Part shown: in pieces, positions 17,189 through 26,842 of the stretch
Position numbering within the stretch: position 1 is the stretch's first letter
Layout: each line of letters opens with the position of its first letter
Assembly (NCBI GenBank): GCA_029880585.1
Contig: JAOUOC010000007.1
Location: forward strand, 1-35,680
Direction of reading: 5' to 3'
From: Gammaproteobacteria bacterium
Lineage (GTDB): Bacteria; Pseudomonadota; Gammaproteobacteria; Enterobacterales; Kangiellaceae
Length of the DNA: 35,680 nt
Position numbers and translations under genes: made by a program
The notes under the pieces: generated by a model
Database searches by the model: none
What the model saw: only the letters and a program-made list of their open reading frames with translations
Told to the model about the DNA's origin: nothing

Positions 17189-17803
17189 CTAGACTCTTAC
17201 ACTGGTGAGTATCATATTAACGACATCGTCAGTTTTTTGCTGATACTCATCTTCATTATATGGCTCATCATTGTTGAGTATTTCTATCTGGTTTTCAAAG
17301 TCGGCGTAATGCTGAGTGACTGACCAAATCATATAAAAAAGCACATAGGGATCTACGGGCTTTATTCTGCCTTCTTGCACCCAATTTTCAACAATCTGTT
17401 TTTTATCTTCAAACCAGTTTTTAAATTCAGTTCTGAGAAAATCGCCTGCGACGGTAGCACCATGTAAAATCTCATTAGCCCATACTTTTGAAGCAAGTGG
17501 ACGGTTACGGGAAAATTGCATTTTGGCTTCAACATAATGGGTTAATGCTGTTTTGGGGTCCTGATATTGATCAAAAACTTCCGCAGCATCCATCCATTCG
17601 ATCAAAATTCTCTCCAGAACAACACGATATAATTGCAACTTGGTTTTAAAATAATAATGTAGATTAGATTTGGGTAGCCCTGCCTTTCTGGCAATCATTT
17701 CTGTGGTAGCCCCCTTAAAACCAAAGCGTGCGAAAACTTGCTCTGCAGCCTGAATAATTTTTTTTTCGTTGGTTTCCCGAATAATTTCTTTTTGATCTTT
17801 CAT
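17189..17803 (-). CDS. TetR family regulator, RutR-like
   Basis: The 204-residue protein has an N-terminal TetR helix-turn-helix (AEQVFARFGFKGATTEMIAR, then KAGLPKSNLHYYFKTKLQLY). Its C-terminal ligand domain resembles E. coli RutR: SRNRPLASKVWANEILHGA and the strongly RutR-like block MIWSVTQHYADFENQIE. RutR binds uracil or thymine and controls pyrimidine metabolism. Here the gene is the last of the deoA-upp-cdd operon, whose enzymes make and consume thymine and uracil, and a RutR-type operator lies at the operon promoter. I infer an autoregulated repressor that senses a free pyrimidine base. It is not certain that it is the orthologue of rutR, since no rut genes are in the window. Confidence 0.85.
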   Translation of the reverse strand: MKDQKEIIRETNEKKIIQAAEQVFARFGFKGATTEMIARKAGLPKSNLHYYFKTKLQLYRVVLERILIEWMDAAEVFDQYQDPKTALTHYVEAKMQFSRNRPLASKVWANEILHGATVAGDFLRTEFKNWFEDKKQIVENWVQEGRIKPVDPYVLFYMIWSVTQHYADFENQIEILNNDEPYNEDEYQQKTDDVVNMILTSVRV

Positions 17804-18772: not shown

Positions 18773-19327
18773 TTACCTCGATATATCAATTTTGGGTAAA
18801 TCCAGTCCCTTCTGATTTTTAATTTCATCTTCGGTGCAGCCGACCAATTCGTGAGGAAACACCAGCCATTCATCGGTTTCTTCAAGATAAAAATCAGGCT
18901 GGATGTTAGTCACATTATTGTTTGGCTTGTAATAAACTGTCGCAACTTTGATGGTTGAAGGTGTATTTTTACGGCATTTTATTTTTATCTTCTTCAACAA
19001 GGCATCAATAGAACGGCCACTATCAAACACGTCATCTACAATCAACAAATTATCTTCTGACTCAATGTTATCAATAATATATTCAAGGCCGTGAACTTTT
19101 ACCTTCTTTTGTTGCTGCATACCTATGTAGCTACTGGTTCGTATGGCAATGTGATCGGTTTTGACACCGTAATATTCCATAATTTCCTGTACTGCAATTC
19201 CTGTTGGGGTTCCACCGCGCCAAATGCCTACAATAAACTCCGGTTTAAAACCGCTTTTTAAAATATGGATGCCAAGTTCAAAAGATTTATTCAACAAATC
19301 CTCGGCACTGATAAAAACTTTATCCAT
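18773..19327 (-). CDS. Purine-type phosphoribosyltransferase (probable hypoxanthine phosphoribosyltransferase)
   Basis: The protein transfers phosphoribose from PRPP to a base, probably hypoxanthine or guanine/xanthine. The PRPP-binding loop is plain: LLIVDDVFDSGRS. An N-terminal IVGIWRGGTPTGIAVQE strand-loop and a C-terminal hood (YYKPNNNVTNIQPDFYLEET) complete the type I PRTase fold. The ORF track begins at a TTG (19336); the ATG at 19327 (MDKVFISAEDLL) is more likely, giving 184 residues. It is embedded between upp and cdd, 11 bp before cdd, so purine base capture is co-expressed with pyrimidine salvage. The exact base preference cannot be read from sequence. Confidence 0.82.
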   Translation of the reverse strand: MDKVFISAEDLLNKSFELGIHILKSGFKPEFIVGIWRGGTPTGIAVQEIMEYYGVKTDHIAIRTSSYIGMQQQKKVKVHGLEYIIDNIESEDNLLIVDDVFDSGRSIDALLKKIKIKCRKNTPSTIKVATVYYKPNNNVTNIQPDFYLEETDEWLVFPHELVGCTEDEIKNQKGLDLPKIDISR

Positions 19328-19382
19328 TACTTCCAACCTTCTAATAAACTACTTTTCAAAAACTTTATTAATAACTTCCAAT

Positions 19383-20049: not shown

Positions 20050-22443
20050 TTAATCACCATAAGGTATCCAGACATTTTTCACCTCACAGGCTTCGCGTAA
20101 AAACTGCCTTTCCTTTCCTGTTCGATACCAGTCAAATGCTTTACCATAATTCACCCAGGTACGCTTAAGATTGGTTGCAGAGGCCATCTCAACCATTTTG
20201 CAACCTTCAATACTACCGTGATACCAAACACCTTCCACCTGTTGGTGCTCTGACAAAACTTTCATCAATGAATCTTTATCTCCGGTGATGATGTTAACAA
20301 CACCAGCAGGCATATCAGAAGTTTCCAGAATCTGATAAAAGTCAGTTGCCAGCAGAGGTGCTGACTCAGATGGAATGATAACAACTCGATTCCCCATAGC
20401 GATGGCAGCTGATAACAGAGAGACAAAGGCAAGCAAAGGTGTATCATCAGGGCAACCAATTGCCATAACGCCAATCGCTTCATTCATTGCTAACGTGACA
20501 CCATGCATAGGTGGCTGATGAACCGCACTGTCGTATTTATCTGCCCAGGCAGCATAGGTGAATATCTGTGAGATTGCCGCATCAAATTCGGTTTCTGCCT
20601 GTTTTTGTGTATAGCCAGCTACCTGCTTCAATCGTTCACAAAATTCGCCTCGTCGATAGGCAAGATTCTCAGCCATAAAATAAAGAATTTGGGCACGGAA
20701 ATGGCCGTTAGATTGACTCCAGCTTCCGGCTTTAAAGGCGGCTTCTACTGCATTTCTGACATCCTTACGATTACCTTCGCTGATTCTGCCACAGTCTGTA
20801 CCTGTAGGAGAATGCACCACGAGCGAGTACCCACCGTCAGGGCGTACCTGCTTGCCATTTATATAAAGTTTTGCAGTTTGATCAATTGCAGGAAAATCAC
20901 CCTTGTCAGTTGTGTTTTTTATAGTTGATTTTGCCCCTTTATTCGCTTCTTTTTTGGATTTGCCCTCGAGATAAATCGGATTGGCAGGCTTCATATATTC
21001 ATGCATTCCTTCCATTCCGCCTTCCCGACCAACACCTGATTCTCTGTAACCACCAAAACCACAGGATGCATCAAACTGATTGGTGGTGTTAATCCAAACG
21101 ACACCAGCCTTTATTTGTGGTGCGACATCCAAAGCTCGGTTAATATTTTCTGACCAGACACTGGAAGCGAGTCCGTAACGGGTGTTGTTGGCAAGAGTAA
21201 TAGCCTCAGATTGCTCTCTGAAACTCATCACACTGAGAACCGGACCAAAAATTTCAACATTAGCAGCAACATTGCTGGTTTCTACATCTGTCAAAAGTGT
21301 TGGTAGACAGAAGCAACCATCTTTGGGAGAAGACAGCTTGGGTTGCCATTTGGTTGCTCCCTCAGCCACACTTTGTTCAACAATAGATAATATTCTTTGC
21401 TGTTGTGATGGATCGACTATCGCGCCAATATCGGTATTTTTATCCAGAGGATCGCCAACAATCAGTTTTTTCATTCTGGCTTTCAGTTTTTCAACAAACT
21501 TCTCTTCTACTGTCTCCTGAACCAACAATCTGGAACCAGCACAACAAACCTGCCCCTGATTAAACCAGATGGCATCTACAATACCTTCTACAGCGCTATC
21601 CAGATCGGCATCATCAAAGACAATAAAAGGAGATTTACCGCCTAACTCAAGGGTGATTTTTTTGCCTGTTCCTGCAGTTTTTTCACGGATAATTTTGCCA
21701 ACTTCAGTTGAACCGGTAAAAGCGATTTTGTCTATATTTTCATGGGTCACAATAGCATTACCAACAACGCCATCACCAGTAACTACGTTCACTACACCTT
21801 TGGGTAAACCGACTTCCTCAAAAACTTCTGCCAACATCAAAGCACTTAAACTGGTGTATTCTGCAGGCTTTATCACCACACAGTTACCGGCTGCAATGGC
21901 GGGCGCAATTTTCCATGCTGCCATCAACAATGGAAAGTTCCACGGAATGATCTGACCTACCACACCCAATGGAACAAAATCAGATAGCTCACTATCCATT
22001 AACTGTGCCCAGCCAGCATGATGATAAAAATGCCTGACCACTAATGGAATATCAATATCTCTGGATTCACGAATTGGTTTACCATTGTCCATAGATTCAA
22101 TTACGGCAAATTCTCTGGAACGTTTTTGAATAAGACGTGCAATAGCGTAAAGATACTTGGCTCTGCCATGTCCACCTAGCTTTTGCCATTCAGGTTGTGC
22201 AGCTCTTGCTGACTGAATTGCCAGTTCTATACTCTCATCACTTGCTTGAGAAATTTTTGCCAGCAATTTACCATTGGATGGATTTTTTGATTCAAAAAAC
22301 TGACCTTTGTTTTGCTGATACCATTGACCATTGATATACATACCAAAACCTTTTTTATGGTCTTCAAGCCATTGATCAATCTTGTCATGACCTTCCGGTG
22401 CTGGTCCGTAACTCATCTTTTTAAATATGTCCGAAATTTTCAT
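20050..22443 (-). CDS. Tandem-domain aldehyde dehydrogenase (ALDH16-like)
   Basis: The 797 residues hold two ALDH modules. Domain 1 (about 35-495) is complete: GQIIPWNFPLLMAAWK, FTGSTEVGKII, the general base ELGGKSP and the catalytic Cys in FNQGQVCCAGSR, then EIFGPVLSVMSF. A Lys/Ser-rich linker follows (about 505-525). Domain 2 (about 530-797) keeps the NAD-fold half (MAIGCPDDTPLLAFVSLLSA, VVNIITGDKDSL) but has no Cys/Glu catalytic site and stops early. This two-domain plan is that of the ALDH16 family, whose human member has lost the Cys. Position directly after deoC suggests it oxidises the acetaldehyde made by the aldolase to acetate; this is inference from context. It lies 38 bp after deoC and 40 bp before upp. 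Confidence 0.9.
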   Translation of the reverse strand: MKISDIFKKMSYGPAPEGHDKIDQWLEDHKKGFGMYINGQWYQQNKGQFFESKNPSNGKLLAKISQASDESIELAIQSARAAQPEWQKLGGHGRAKYLYAIARLIQKRSREFAVIESMDNGKPIRESRDIDIPLVVRHFYHHAGWAQLMDSELSDFVPLGVVGQIIPWNFPLLMAAWKIAPAIAAGNCVVIKPAEYTSLSALMLAEVFEEVGLPKGVVNVVTGDGVVGNAIVTHENIDKIAFTGSTEVGKIIREKTAGTGKKITLELGGKSPFIVFDDADLDSAVEGIVDAIWFNQGQVCCAGSRLLVQETVEEKFVEKLKARMKKLIVGDPLDKNTDIGAIVDPSQQQRILSIVEQSVAEGATKWQPKLSSPKDGCFCLPTLLTDVETSNVAANVEIFGPVLSVMSFREQSEAITLANNTRYGLASSVWSENINRALDVAPQIKAGVVWINTTNQFDASCGFGGYRESGVGREGGMEGMHEYMKPANPIYLEGKSKKEANKGAKSTIKNTTDKGDFPAIDQTAKLYINGKQVRPDGGYSLVVHSPTGTDCGRISEGNRKDVRNAVEAAFKAGSWSQSNGHFRAQILYFMAENLAYRRGEFCERLKQVAGYTQKQAETEFDAAISQIFTYAAWADKYDSAVHQPPMHGVTLAMNEAIGVMAIGCPDDTPLLAFVSLLSAAIAMGNRVVIIPSESAPLLATDFYQILETSDMPAGVVNIITGDKDSLMKVLSEHQQVEGVWYHGSIEGCKMVEMASATNLKRTWVNYGKAFDWYRTGKERQFLREACEVKNVWIPYGD

Positions 22444-22481: not shown

Positions 22482-23471
22482 TTAACTTATGGGATGACGA
22501 TGGAACGCAGAGTATCGTCCGGTAACATGATGCTCCAATTGACGCTCAATATCAGCTAACAAGCTGGATGCACCAAAACGAAACATTTCAGGATTTAACC
22601 AATAATCTCCAAGCTCTTCTTTCATCAACACCAGATAATTAATCGCATCTTTTGCCGTACTAATTCCACCTGCAGGCTTAAACCCAACACGATAGCCTGT
22701 TAGCACCTGATAATGCCTGATCATTCTGGTCATCACCAGACTAACTGCCAAATTAGCATTGGTTGATTCCATACCTGTAGAGGTTTTTATAAAATCACTA
22801 CCAGCCATCATGGCAACCATTGAAGCTCTTGCTACATTATTCAAAGTACTCAACTCACCAGTCGAAATAATGGTTTTCATGTGAACATCTGAACCGCAAG
22901 CTTTTTTGAAAGCTTTTATTTCATCATAAAGCTGCTGCCATTTTCCGTTTAATACCAGACCGCGTGTGATTACAATATCAATCTCTTTGGCGCCTGCCGC
23001 AACCGAATGTTTGATCTCTTCCAGACGTGTCGCAAAAGAGGAAAGCCCAGCCGGGAATCCTGTGGAAACTGCAGCAACAGGAATATCAGTTCCTTCAAGT
23101 GCTTTGACGGCAACAGGAACCATTTCGTGATAAACACAAACAGCACCAGTTGTGATATTCAAGTCTTCAACTTCAAGTGCCTTTTGTAGTTCCAGACTAA
23201 TGGGATTTTTAGCCTTCGCGCACAACCGCTTCACCTTGCCAGGGGTATCCTGACCAGATAAAGTTGTTAAATCAATACATGAAACTGCTTTGAGTAGCCA
23301 GGCTGCTTGCCAGGCTTTTTTCAATGAACGTCTTTTCGTCAGGGTGTTTACCCGACGTTGAATAGCACTGAAATTAACACGAATATCATCAACCCATTGC
23401 ATTTTTAATTCAACACCCGGGTTATGTACACCGTGAAATGATTTCACCACTGAACTGTCTTGTGCATCCAT
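22482..23471 (-). CDS. deoC: Deoxyribose-phosphate aldolase
   Basis: It cleaves 2-deoxyribose 5-phosphate to acetaldehyde and glyceraldehyde 3-phosphate. At 329 residues it is of the longer, eukaryote-like type; E. coli DeoC is about 259. It carries a 70-residue N-terminal extension (FSAIQRRVNTLTKRRSLKKA) before the barrel. The first barrel strand is AVSCIDLTTLSG. The Schiff-base Lys is in SDFIKTSTGM, and the second catalytic Lys is in VGFKPAGGIST. AVSTGFPAGL and GAKEIDIVI are further family marks. It sits 39 bp after deoA and 38 bp before the aldehyde dehydrogenase, which gives a compact route from thymidine to acetate and glycolysis. Confidence 0.96.
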   Translation of the reverse strand: MDAQDSSVVKSFHGVHNPGVELKMQWVDDIRVNFSAIQRRVNTLTKRRSLKKAWQAAWLLKAVSCIDLTTLSGQDTPGKVKRLCAKAKNPISLELQKALEVEDLNITTGAVCVYHEMVPVAVKALEGTDIPVAAVSTGFPAGLSSFATRLEEIKHSVAAGAKEIDIVITRGLVLNGKWQQLYDEIKAFKKACGSDVHMKTIISTGELSTLNNVARASMVAMMAGSDFIKTSTGMESTNANLAVSLVMTRMIRHYQVLTGYRVGFKPAGGISTAKDAINYLVLMKEELGDYWLNPEMFRFGASSLLADIERQLEHHVTGRYSAFHRHPIS

Positions 23472-23510: not shown

Positions 23511-24866
23511 TTACGCTGTAATTCTTTTTAAAATAACCGAATTTCCGACTGTTATACTTTCTGAATCTTTTGTCGAATTCTCAGCTATATCTTCAAATTT
23601 ATAAGCCGATAAAATTCTTTTGGTTACCGAATCAATCTTCGACTCATCGTTGATATGCAACATTAGTAAAGGTTCTTGATCATCAACTTTATCACCAATT
23701 CCTTTTATCTGTGAAAATCCTACAGCATGATCAATACGATCGGTTACCAATCTTCTTCCACCACCAATTTCTACAATTGCATTGCCTAATGCTCTGACAT
23801 CAATCGATTTAACTCTACCATTTTGAATATTTTCTGCATAAACGGGGATTATTGTGCCAGCTTGTTCCAAATATTTTGCAGTACTGGATAACAGATCAGA
23901 AGGACCACCCAAAGCAACCACCATTTCTTCAAACTTCTCAGCGGCCAGACCTGAATCTAAAACCTGATTGATTTTTATTTTTGCCTGTTTGGAATCTCCT
24001 TCCAACCCGCTGGAAACTAATAGCTCGGCTACCAACTCGACAACAACCTGATGTAATCTGGCTTCTCTTTGTTTGCCAGTTAAATAATCTATGCTTTCAT
24101 GAACTTCCAGAGCATTTCCCGCAGTAAAACCCAAAACCTGAGACATATCAGTAATCAGTGCAGTTGTTTTTAACCCCAAACCTTCACCAACCTCAGCGAT
24201 ATTCCTTGCCAAATCTTCTGCCATTTGTTGACTGGCGGCAAATGCACCACTGCCTGTTTTAACATCCATCACCAATGCATCAAGCCCTGCTGCCAACTTT
24301 TTGGATAATATCGAGGCGGTAATTAATGGTATGGACTCTACCGTCGAAGTTACATCCCGAATGGAATACAGTCGTTTATCTGCTGGTGCCAATTCAGCTG
24401 TCTGTCCAACTATTGCACAACCGCATTGAGAGACAACTTTTTGTAATTGGCTAATATCGGGGGTGGCATTGTAGCCGGGAATGCTTTCCATTTTATCCAA
24501 CGTTCCACCCGTATGACCTAGCCCTCTTCCTGAAATCATTGGTACATAAGCACCACATGCAGCCAAAATCGAGGCAAGCATCAAACTGACCTTATCACCA
24601 ACACCACCTGTTGAATGCTTGTCTACCACAGGTCCTGAAAAGTTATAACCTGACCAATCCAGAGTTGAACCAGAATGTTGTATTCCGCTGGTCAGTGCTA
24701 CACCTTCTTCACGAGTCATACCCTGAAAAAAGACAGCCATGGCAAAAGCAGCTACCTGACTATCAGAAATAGACTGATCGACCAATCCATCAACAAAAAA
24801 TTGGATTTCTTTTGCGGTAAGAATACTACCATCTCGCTTTGCACGAATTAATTCTTGAGCCAACAT
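23511..24866 (-). CDS. deoA: Thymidine phosphorylase
   Basis: It phosphorolyses thymidine and deoxyuridine to the base and deoxyribose 1-phosphate. Its 451 residues span the usual alpha domain, hinge and C-terminal alpha/beta domain. Motifs are the phosphate-binding VVDKHSTGGVGDKVS, the family signature SGRGLGHTGGTLDKMESIPG and VMDVKTGSGAF, with DRIDHAVGFSQIKGIGD near the end. It is the first gene of the seven-gene minus operon. The Shine-Dalgarno AGGTGA (24876-24881) lies 9 nt before the ATG and is itself the edge of a 16-17 bp repeat array. Expression is probably controlled by the operator at 25085 and perhaps by the leader. Confidence 0.97.
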   Translation of the reverse strand: MLAQELIRAKRDGSILTAKEIQFFVDGLVDQSISDSQVAAFAMAVFFQGMTREEGVALTSGIQHSGSTLDWSGYNFSGPVVDKHSTGGVGDKVSLMLASILAACGAYVPMISGRGLGHTGGTLDKMESIPGYNATPDISQLQKVVSQCGCAIVGQTAELAPADKRLYSIRDVTSTVESIPLITASILSKKLAAGLDALVMDVKTGSGAFAASQQMAEDLARNIAEVGEGLGLKTTALITDMSQVLGFTAGNALEVHESIDYLTGKQREARLHQVVVELVAELLVSSGLEGDSKQAKIKINQVLDSGLAAEKFEEMVVALGGPSDLLSSTAKYLEQAGTIIPVYAENIQNGRVKSIDVRALGNAIVEIGGGRRLVTDRIDHAVGFSQIKGIGDKVDDQEPLLMLHINDESKIDSVTKRILSAYKFEDIAENSTKDSESITVGNSVILKRITA

Positions 24867-24875
24867 AAATTTCAG

Positions 24876-24939
24876 TCACCTGATAATCATTACTACCTGA
24901 TAGTCGTTACTGCCGACTATCATTTCTACCTATAATCAT
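24876..24939 (-). other. Two overlapping upstream ORFs in the deoA leader
   Basis: uORF1 (24939-24907) encodes MIIGRNDSRQ. uORF2 (24923-24876) encodes MIVGSNDYQVVMIIR. Each ATG has AGG five bases upstream. uORF2 ends in a TGA that is part of the deoA Shine-Dalgarno AGGTGA. Translation is not shown; they may be by-products of repeat expansion. Confidence 0.35.
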
Positions 24940-24944
24940 TTCTA
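24879..24944 (-). repeat. Four imperfect 16-17 bp tandem repeats in the deoA leader
   Basis: Units on the plus strand are CCTGATAATCATTACTA, CCTGATAGTCGTTACTG, CCGACTATCATTTCTA and CCTATAATCATTTCTA, followed by CCTAAC. In mRNA sense, the unit boundaries give AGG-TAGAA-ATG or AGG-TAGTA-ATG at three points, so the array repeats a Shine-Dalgarno-like plus ATG pattern. The nearest unit supplies the AGG of the deoA ribosome-binding site. Confidence 0.8.
24898..24922. promoter_or_regulatory. 25-bp dyad in the deoA leader
   Basis: TGATAGTCG and CGACTATCA are perfect 9-bp inverted arms around TTACTGC. In RNA this would be a 9-bp stem with a 7-nt loop, 31 nt before the deoA start. It could be a protein operator or an RNA hairpin, and it straddles two of the tandem repeat units. 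Confidence 0.5.
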
Positions 24945-25070
24945 CCTAACTTTAACAAACAAATTTGCCGGTTAGAATTTTCCTGACAGAATCTTAAAAA
25001 TCAGGTTCACTATACAGCGCAACCACTTGTTATATTTGGTAATTTCTAGATTGCTTAACATAGACGCGCT

Positions 25071-25100
25071 ATGATAAATCAATCTTAACCATTTGGTCAA
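25071..25100 (-). promoter_or_regulatory. Candidate deoA operon promoter
   Basis: Reading minus, TTGACC (-35, 25100-25095), 18 bp, then TATCAT (-10, 25076-25071). Transcription would start near 25064, giving a leader of about 198 nt. The -35 is the right arm of the RutR-like operator, so bound repressor should block polymerase. Confidence 0.55.
25085..25100. promoter_or_regulatory. RutR-like operator
   Basis: TTAACCATTTGGTCAA matches the E. coli RutR consensus TTGACCAnnTGGTCAA (recalled from the literature) at 13 of 14 fixed positions. The operon it faces ends with a RutR-like TetR gene. Confidence 0.65.
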
Positions 25101-26140: not shown

Positions 26141-26166
26141 GGCGGATTAACTAAAGTCTATCCGCC
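26141..26166. terminator. Convergent terminator hairpin after traB and vapC
   Basis: GGCGGAT and ATCCGCC form a perfect 7-bp GC-rich stem with a 12-nt loop, followed on the plus strand by CCTTTTAG. The right arm includes the last codons of the PIN toxin gene. It probably ends the TraB-family transcript. Confidence 0.6.
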
Positions 26167-26591
26167 CCTTTTAGTTCCCAAGGGTCTAATAACTGAACGC
26201 CACTTTGCTGCATATCTTTTGTATTACGAGTTACAACGACCAAATCATACGCCAATCCTGAAGCTGCAATCAATCCATCAATTGCTGGCATAGGTTTGCC
26301 GGTCTGCTCAGCAGAACCTTGAATACGTCCCCACTGGATAGCAATATCCAAATCAAGTGGAATAATTCGCCCTTCAAATCTATTCTTTAAATCTTCTTCA
26401 ACCCACAATTTAATTTTTTCTTTACGATTTTCATCTGAAACCTTCTCAATTCCTTTTTCAATTTCACCAAAGGTCAAAACACTTACATACAGCTCGTATT
26501 CTTCTTGAGACTCTATCCATTTTGTCAAATTTTGATTGGGTTTTGGTTTGAATAATTCTGAAATAACACAAGTATCTAGCAGATAACTCAT
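26151..26591 (-). CDS. PIN-domain toxin (VapC/FitB type)
   Basis: This is a 146-residue type II toxin, expected to be an Mg-dependent RNase. The acidic PIN residues are visible: Asp in LLDTCVISELF, Glu in VLTFGEIEKGI, Asp in PAIDGLIAASG, and the final polar cluster VVTRNTKDM. The C-terminus (VQLLDPWEL) is typical of the FitB-like subgroup. Its ATG overlaps the antitoxin stop by 4 bp, so the pair is translationally coupled. The gene is intact. The RNA target cannot be predicted from sequence. Confidence 0.93.
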   Translation of the reverse strand: MSYLLDTCVISELFKPKPNQNLTKWIESQEEYELYVSVLTFGEIEKGIEKVSDENRKEKIKLWVEEDLKNRFEGRIIPLDLDIAIQWGRIQGSAEQTGKPMPAIDGLIAASGLAYDLVVVTRNTKDMQQSGVQLLDPWELKGADRL

Positions 26592-26842
26592 AATTCAATA
26601 TCTCTTGGTAAATCTTTGTTTCTTGAAATATCTAATGAAATATCTTTAAGCGGAGATGAATTAAAAAAACTGATCAGGTCAATTTCAGGTTTGGTTATTT
26701 TTTTGTAATCATCATAAGACATAATGACAACGGCTTTTTGCCCATGTCTGGTAACAAATTGAGGCTCATGACACATGGCTTGTTCAACCACCTGACTGAA
26801 TTTTCCTTTTGCATCCTGAAGCTGCCAAATACTCTTTTTCAT
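26588..26842 (-). CDS. Phd/YefM-type antitoxin
   Basis: This 84-residue antitoxin has an N-terminal DNA-binding fold (WQLQDAKGKFSQVVEQA, then PQFVTRHGQKAVVIMSYDDY) typical of Phd/YefM. Its C-terminal tail (FFNSSPLKDISLDISRNKDL) should wrap the toxin. It precedes and overlaps the PIN toxin gene. The promoter (26875-26903) and the 12-bp palindrome at 26858 fit conditional autorepression by the antitoxin-toxin complex. Confidence 0.92.
   Translation of the reverse strand: MKKSIWQLQDAKGKFSQVVEQAMCHEPQFVTRHGQKAVVIMSYDDYKKITKPEIDLISFFNSSPLKDISLDISRNKDLPRDIEL

Follow-up and report, generated by a model that had tools for sequence, protein, structure and literature searches.

The engineered systems closest to the locus considered here are leaders in which units of a Shine-Dalgarno (SD) sequence and a start codon are repeated in tandem. 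In Bacillus, such units placed 15–21 nt apart raise output, and their start codons are needed (PMC9723656). Each start initiates the reporter in Gram-positive hosts, giving separate protein bands, with only one start being used in E. coli (PMC9723656). Ribosomes that have terminated can search ∼40 nt for an SD (PMC5972666). In the Beggiatoaceae, TAACTGA repeats before start codons have been proposed to be regulator sites (PMC4679880). At the level of transcription, DNA binding by E. coli RutR is abolished by uracil, with the effect of thymine being disputed (PMC6245113).

We analysed a tandem array lying upstream of deoA, the first gene of a putative operon for nucleoside breakdown, in an Aliikangiella-like marine bacterium. 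Positions refer to the window, i.e. the whole 35,680-nt stretch of DNA that was analysed, and the array, leader and promoter features are all on the minus strand. The array lies below a promoter and a RutR-type operator that are both conserved, and it has the appearance of an ordinary duplication specific to the lineage rather than of a demonstrated switch.

The tandem array upstream of deoA

TRF reported a repeat with a period of 16, 4.2 copies, a 74% match and a score of 77 (span 24878–24947), with the units themselves spanning 24882–24947. In transcript order, these are unit 1 (24932–24947; AGGTAGAAATGATTAT, 16 bp), unit 2 (24915–24931; AGGTAGAAATGATAGTC, 17 bp), unit 3 (24899–24914; GGCAGTAACGACTATC, 16 bp) and unit 4 (24882–24898; AGGTAGTAATGATTATC, 17 bp), followed by the ribosome-binding site of deoA itself. 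The original prediction placed the array at 24876–24944; there is a tandem array at this location, but these limits leave off three bases of unit 1 and stop within the SD region of deoA. It also described four AGG-N5-ATG units, which is correct for units 1, 2 and 4 but not for unit 3. The latter is degenerate and has lost both the AGG and the ATG, reading GGC-AGTAA-CGA with three T-to-C differences from unit 4. Units 1 and 2 hold the starts of two upstream open reading frames (uORF 1 and uORF 2, respectively), and only these two units have ∼14 identical bases in common.

The tandem repeat is real. The intergenic region (361 bp) was dinucleotide-shuffled 3000 times and the window as a whole shuffled 100 times without a TRF score of 77 or more being obtained, and chance acting on composition therefore does not account for the array. 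Where shuffled leaders were searched for AGG-N4-8-ATG, 31% had at least one and 0.4% had three; since the units are copies of each other, their three SD-plus-ATG cores represent a single event. Sampling 174 kb of this genome turned up higher-scoring arrays than that of deoA at several sites, so one such array per 36-kb window is not unusual here. A second copy of the array was not found in the genome, and a dispersed element was rejected, with neither the array nor the dyad described below being present elsewhere. Searches gave no Rfam match up to E = 1 (riboswitch and attenuator families) and no intrinsic terminator or attenuator.

For comparison, we used six relatives with this deoA, taking one genome per species. 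The array is absent from all six, while the operator and promoter are retained, and alignment of the full array to the upstream regions of the relatives was not above shuffles. AGG-N5-ATG repeated at a 16-nt period gave scattered matches in the relatives, in unrelated sequences. Conservation thus lends no support to a function for the array. In two relatives, L138 (AGGTAGCAATTAATTATG) and L136, the ribosome-binding region of deoA is similar to the unit, in matching register (single-test p 0.006–0.02), hinting that deoA's own ribosome-binding site is a plausible source of the repeat. In Aliikangiella marina (L029 3690–3731), a different duplication, of 21 bp in two copies, is found upstream of deoA, indicating that this spacer accepts tandem duplications.

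The operator, promoter and deo gene run

A RutR-type palindromic operator (TTGACCAAATGGTTAA; 25085–25100) overlaps the −35 hexamer TTGACC of the predicted deoA promoter (25071–25100; TTGACC, 18 nt, TATCAT). The operator has one mismatch to TTGACCANNTGGTCAA, which we take to be the RutR box consensus. The promoter was predicted by a consensus scan that, by itself, was not above shuffle expectation. All six relatives retain the operator box, 95–291 nt upstream of deoA, a TATtAT-type −10 hexamer lies 18 nt past TTGACC, and the pattern TTGACCAA.TGGT.A...TT....TAT.AT is invariant in the deoA promoter region of all seven genomes. A related palindrome, TGGACTAAACGGTCAA, is contained in the E. coli rutA-rutR spacer.

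A second box is present upstream of deoA in four relatives (L134, L137, L138 and L003), with a weaker one in L135; no second RutR box was found inside the array. TTGACCANNTGGTNA was also considered as a marker of further operators; it has two more exact matches in the genome, both within coding frames, and these were put down to chance.

Placing the start at the predicted −10 plus 7, the predicted deoA leader is ∼197 nt long, up to the ATG (24867–25063); leader lengths in the relatives are 58–254 nt. The array is ∼130 nt downstream of the operator-overlapped promoter. Given a conserved promoter above it, the array is probably transcribed as part of the deoA leader. Transcription starting below the array, which the original prediction named as the case against it, is unlikely given the conservation of the promoter in the relatives.

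The minus-strand run consists of deoA (thymidine phosphorylase, 23511–24866; NCBIfam TIGR02643, 618.9 bits, cut-off 570.7), deoC (deoxyribose-phosphate aldolase, 22482–23471; TIGR00126, 154.9 bits, cut-off 117.3), an aldehyde dehydrogenase gene, upp, a phosphoribosyltransferase gene, cdd and a TetR-family gene, with deoB convergent, and we infer that it is an operon. Within the run, the 797-aa product of 20050–22443 contains two stretches of aldehyde dehydrogenase sequence, the second of which looks divergent, and the phosphoribosyltransferase-like protein between upp and cdd (18773–19336) scores under every curated cut-off. At 26151–26842, near a TraB/GumN-like gene, two overlapping small genes resemble, by eye, a PIN-domain toxin and a Phd-type antitoxin.

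The last gene in the run (17189–17803) encodes a TetR regulator matching PF08362 (E 3e-47), and the best solved relatives of this protein are E. coli RutR (E 2e-38). Against TIGR03613 it scores 162.6 bits where the cut-off for a strict RutR equivalog is 368, and it is therefore named RutR-like. A PF08362 regulator is likewise encoded on the deoA contig of several relatives. As judged from sequence, the conserved control of deoA is transcriptional and would act at the RutR-type operator. From the operator and the gene order together, a regulon can be predicted for the deo genes in this family and put to the test.

Upstream reading frames, dyad and access to the deoA start

The two uORFs of 10 and 15 codons that had been proposed are both found in the sequence. 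uORF 1 (24907–24939; MIIGRNDSRQ*, 10 codons plus TAA) has its ATG at −73 and its stop at −43 relative to deoA. uORF 2 (24876–24923; MIVGSNDYQVVMIIR*, 15 codons plus TGA) has its ATG at −57 and its stop at −12 and, as had also been stated, ends inside the deoA SD: its TGA is part of AGGTGA, 12 nt before the deoA ATG. The ATG of unit 4 (−24) is an internal start in the uORF 2 frame, giving 4 codons. uORF 2 and unit 4 share the reading frame of deoA, which is closed only by the TGA at −12. A start, an SD and a stop close to the start of the downstream gene are all present in the deoA uORF, and 34% of shuffled leaders have a uORF stop 5–20 nt ahead of the deoA ATG. No uORF conservation was seen in the relatives examined.

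A perfect 9-bp dyad across two units, the last of the structural features originally described, was confirmed at 24898–24922 (TGATAGTCG-N7-CGACTATCA). The predicted hairpin has a stability of −12 kcal/mol, and the uORF 1 stop TAA falls in its 7-nt loop. By chance, a dyad of 9 bp formed in 2.8% of shuffles; among four-unit arrays mutated at random, 4% had one. The end of the unit, GATTATC, is a near-palindrome, so that any unit can nearly pair with any other, and the dyad could have been perfected by template-switch correction (PMC8794818).

The ribosome-binding site and start of deoA (24864–24881; AGGTGACTGAAATTTATG) have the form AGG-N12-ATG, and AAGG-N12/13-ATG is found at deoA in five of the six relatives. 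SD pairing energies were calculated assuming the standard anti-SD GAUCACCUCCUUA, the assembly being without the 16S 3′ end; deoA gave −8.2 kcal/mol, compared with −4.1 to −5.0 kcal/mol for the uORFs. The predicted opening energies were 5.2 kcal/mol for the unit 1 start, 9.4 kcal/mol for unit 2 (uORF 2), 13.0 kcal/mol for unit 4 and ∼5.8 kcal/mol for deoA. Where the number of units was varied from zero to four, the predicted opening energy of the deoA start ranged from 5.4 to 7.5 kcal/mol with no trend. Nor is the deoA start predicted to be masked in a way that a uORF would lift, as opening costs 5.8 kcal/mol with the array and 6.5 kcal/mol without it. The flat opening energies therefore give no support to models in which uORF translation unmasks deoA or in which unit number sets its exposure.

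Accounts of the array and comparison with known systems

We consider it probable that the array is a duplication confined to this lineage, and since drifted, in the leader of a deo operon under RutR-type control, with the repressor rather than the array providing the main control. A 16–17-bp segment with AGGT and ATG, for which the ribosome-binding site of deoA is the hinted source, would have been duplicated in tandem in the deo leader in this lineage only. The copies would afterwards have drifted, with the signals of unit 3 being lost, and two units, through their near-palindromic ends (GATTATC), would have given rise to the dyad. The operon transcript would include the array. The uORFs are perhaps translated weakly, uORF 1 most readily, and some ribosomes ending at the TGA may pass on to deoA, which would be independent of the uORFs through its own stronger, exposed SD. 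By analogy with E. coli RutR, the RutR-like protein would repress at the operator over the −35 and be released by a pyrimidine base.

This duplication is favoured by the absence of the array from relatives that keep the operator and promoter, by leader lengths that vary freely (58–254 nt) and by the divergence of the units, of which unit 3 is degenerate. The likeness of the unit to the L138 and L136 ribosome-binding regions and the RutR-like gene at the end of the putative operon are also consistent with it. Modelling points the same way: the deoA SD is predicted to be the stronger, opening of the deoA start to be barely altered by removing units, and the uORF 2 and unit 4 starts to be more buried than that of deoA. 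Against it, three SD-plus-ATG units lie at 16–17 nt, within the 15–21-nt range that boosts engineered leaders (PMC9723656), and the last uORF stops exactly in the deoA SD. The absence from relatives is also compatible with a recent useful novelty, the proposed ribosome-binding-site origin comes from short AT-rich matches with the whole-array alignment not being significant, and the transcription start is a predicted one.

The best of the alternatives is a functional tandem-RBS leader, in which ribosomes are loaded at the units and translate uORF 2, and reinitiation at deoA raises output, as in a bicistronic design. On its geometry, passive reinitiation at deoA from the uORF stop is possible: the stop is 12 nt before the ATG, and an SD within ∼40 nt is reachable by post-termination ribosomes (PMC5972666). 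The spacings between the units, 16, 33 and 17 nt, can also be set beside the 15–21 nt at which engineered SD-plus-start leaders work, these needing their start codons. However, the engineered starts each initiated the reporter itself, with E. coli using only one, whereas here a TGA closes the frame. A uORF stop at this place is, moreover, common by chance, the uORF 2 and unit 4 starts are buried in the predicted hairpin, and the arrangement is not conserved. We regard such a leader as unlikely, and the fuller proposal, that it is a natural one derived from the duplicated deoA ribosome-binding site with a uORF into the deoA SD raising output, as slightly less likely again.

It is more doubtful still that a protein or a small RNA binds to the array or to the dyad, on the DNA or on the leader. 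A repeated motif with a perfect dyad would suit such a role, for which the Beggiatoaceae repeats are a precedent, but no second array or dyad was found in the genome (the nearest match to the dyad has 3 mismatches, equal to that of a reversed control), there was no Rfam match, and a unit length of 16–17 bp does not correspond to an integral number of helical turns.

The originally proposed slippage-prone contingency locus, with a fast-changing unit number tuning deoA, is very improbable: its position in the leader is suitable and units 1 and 2 hardly differ across 14 bases, but the units as a whole are 74% alike with one of the four degenerate, the high-purity 7/8-bp arrays of the genome differ in kind, and predicted access to the deoA start is independent of unit number. 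These 7/8-bp arrays, which make up most of the higher-scoring arrays in the 174-kb sample, are perfect or near-perfect, have 7–16 copies and differ in sequence. Most of them closely flank an open frame or sit at its end, some are at contig ends, and they include CTCGAAA x15 (L166 4538–4644), AGTTGCT x15 (L170 681–786), TCTCTAAC x16 (L176 10185–10310), GAGAAATA x10 (L169 3733–3810) and AACTATT x7 (L165 1140–1188). As slippage loci, these make better candidates than the array at deoA.

If the units do load ribosomes, the locus would be a natural case of a leader that synthetic biologists have made by hand, and it would show a duplicated ribosome-binding site evolving into a coupling uORF. If they do not, one copied segment has yielded several ‘uORFs’ at once, and uORF counts within a repeat are thus not independent evidence.

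Among known systems, the closest analogue is the engineered multiple-RBS leader, which likewise has tandem SD and start-codon units, 15–21 nt apart, before a gene (PMC9723656); such leaders are designed, whereas the deoA array is natural, degenerate and closed by a TGA before deoA. With the bicistronic design and natural coupling (PMC5972666), the locus shares a short open reading frame running through the downstream SD and stopping just before the next start. Here, however, the uORF is predicted, and the deoA site is predicted to be open without uORF translation. The Beggiatoaceae TAACTGA elements (PMC4679880) are also direct repeats immediately before a start codon in a gammaproteobacterium, but they are identical 7-mers at 169 places, in contrast to one array of degenerate 16–17-bp units with SD-like cores; it is the 7/8-bp arrays of this genome that recall the Beggiatoaceae heptamers. 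E. coli RutR is matched in having a TetR protein with a YcdC-type C-terminal domain, a palindrome related to TGGACTAAACGGTCAA and pyrimidine genes. It differs in that the regulator here is under the RutR equivalog cut-off and in that the predicted target is the deo operon rather than rut or carAB.
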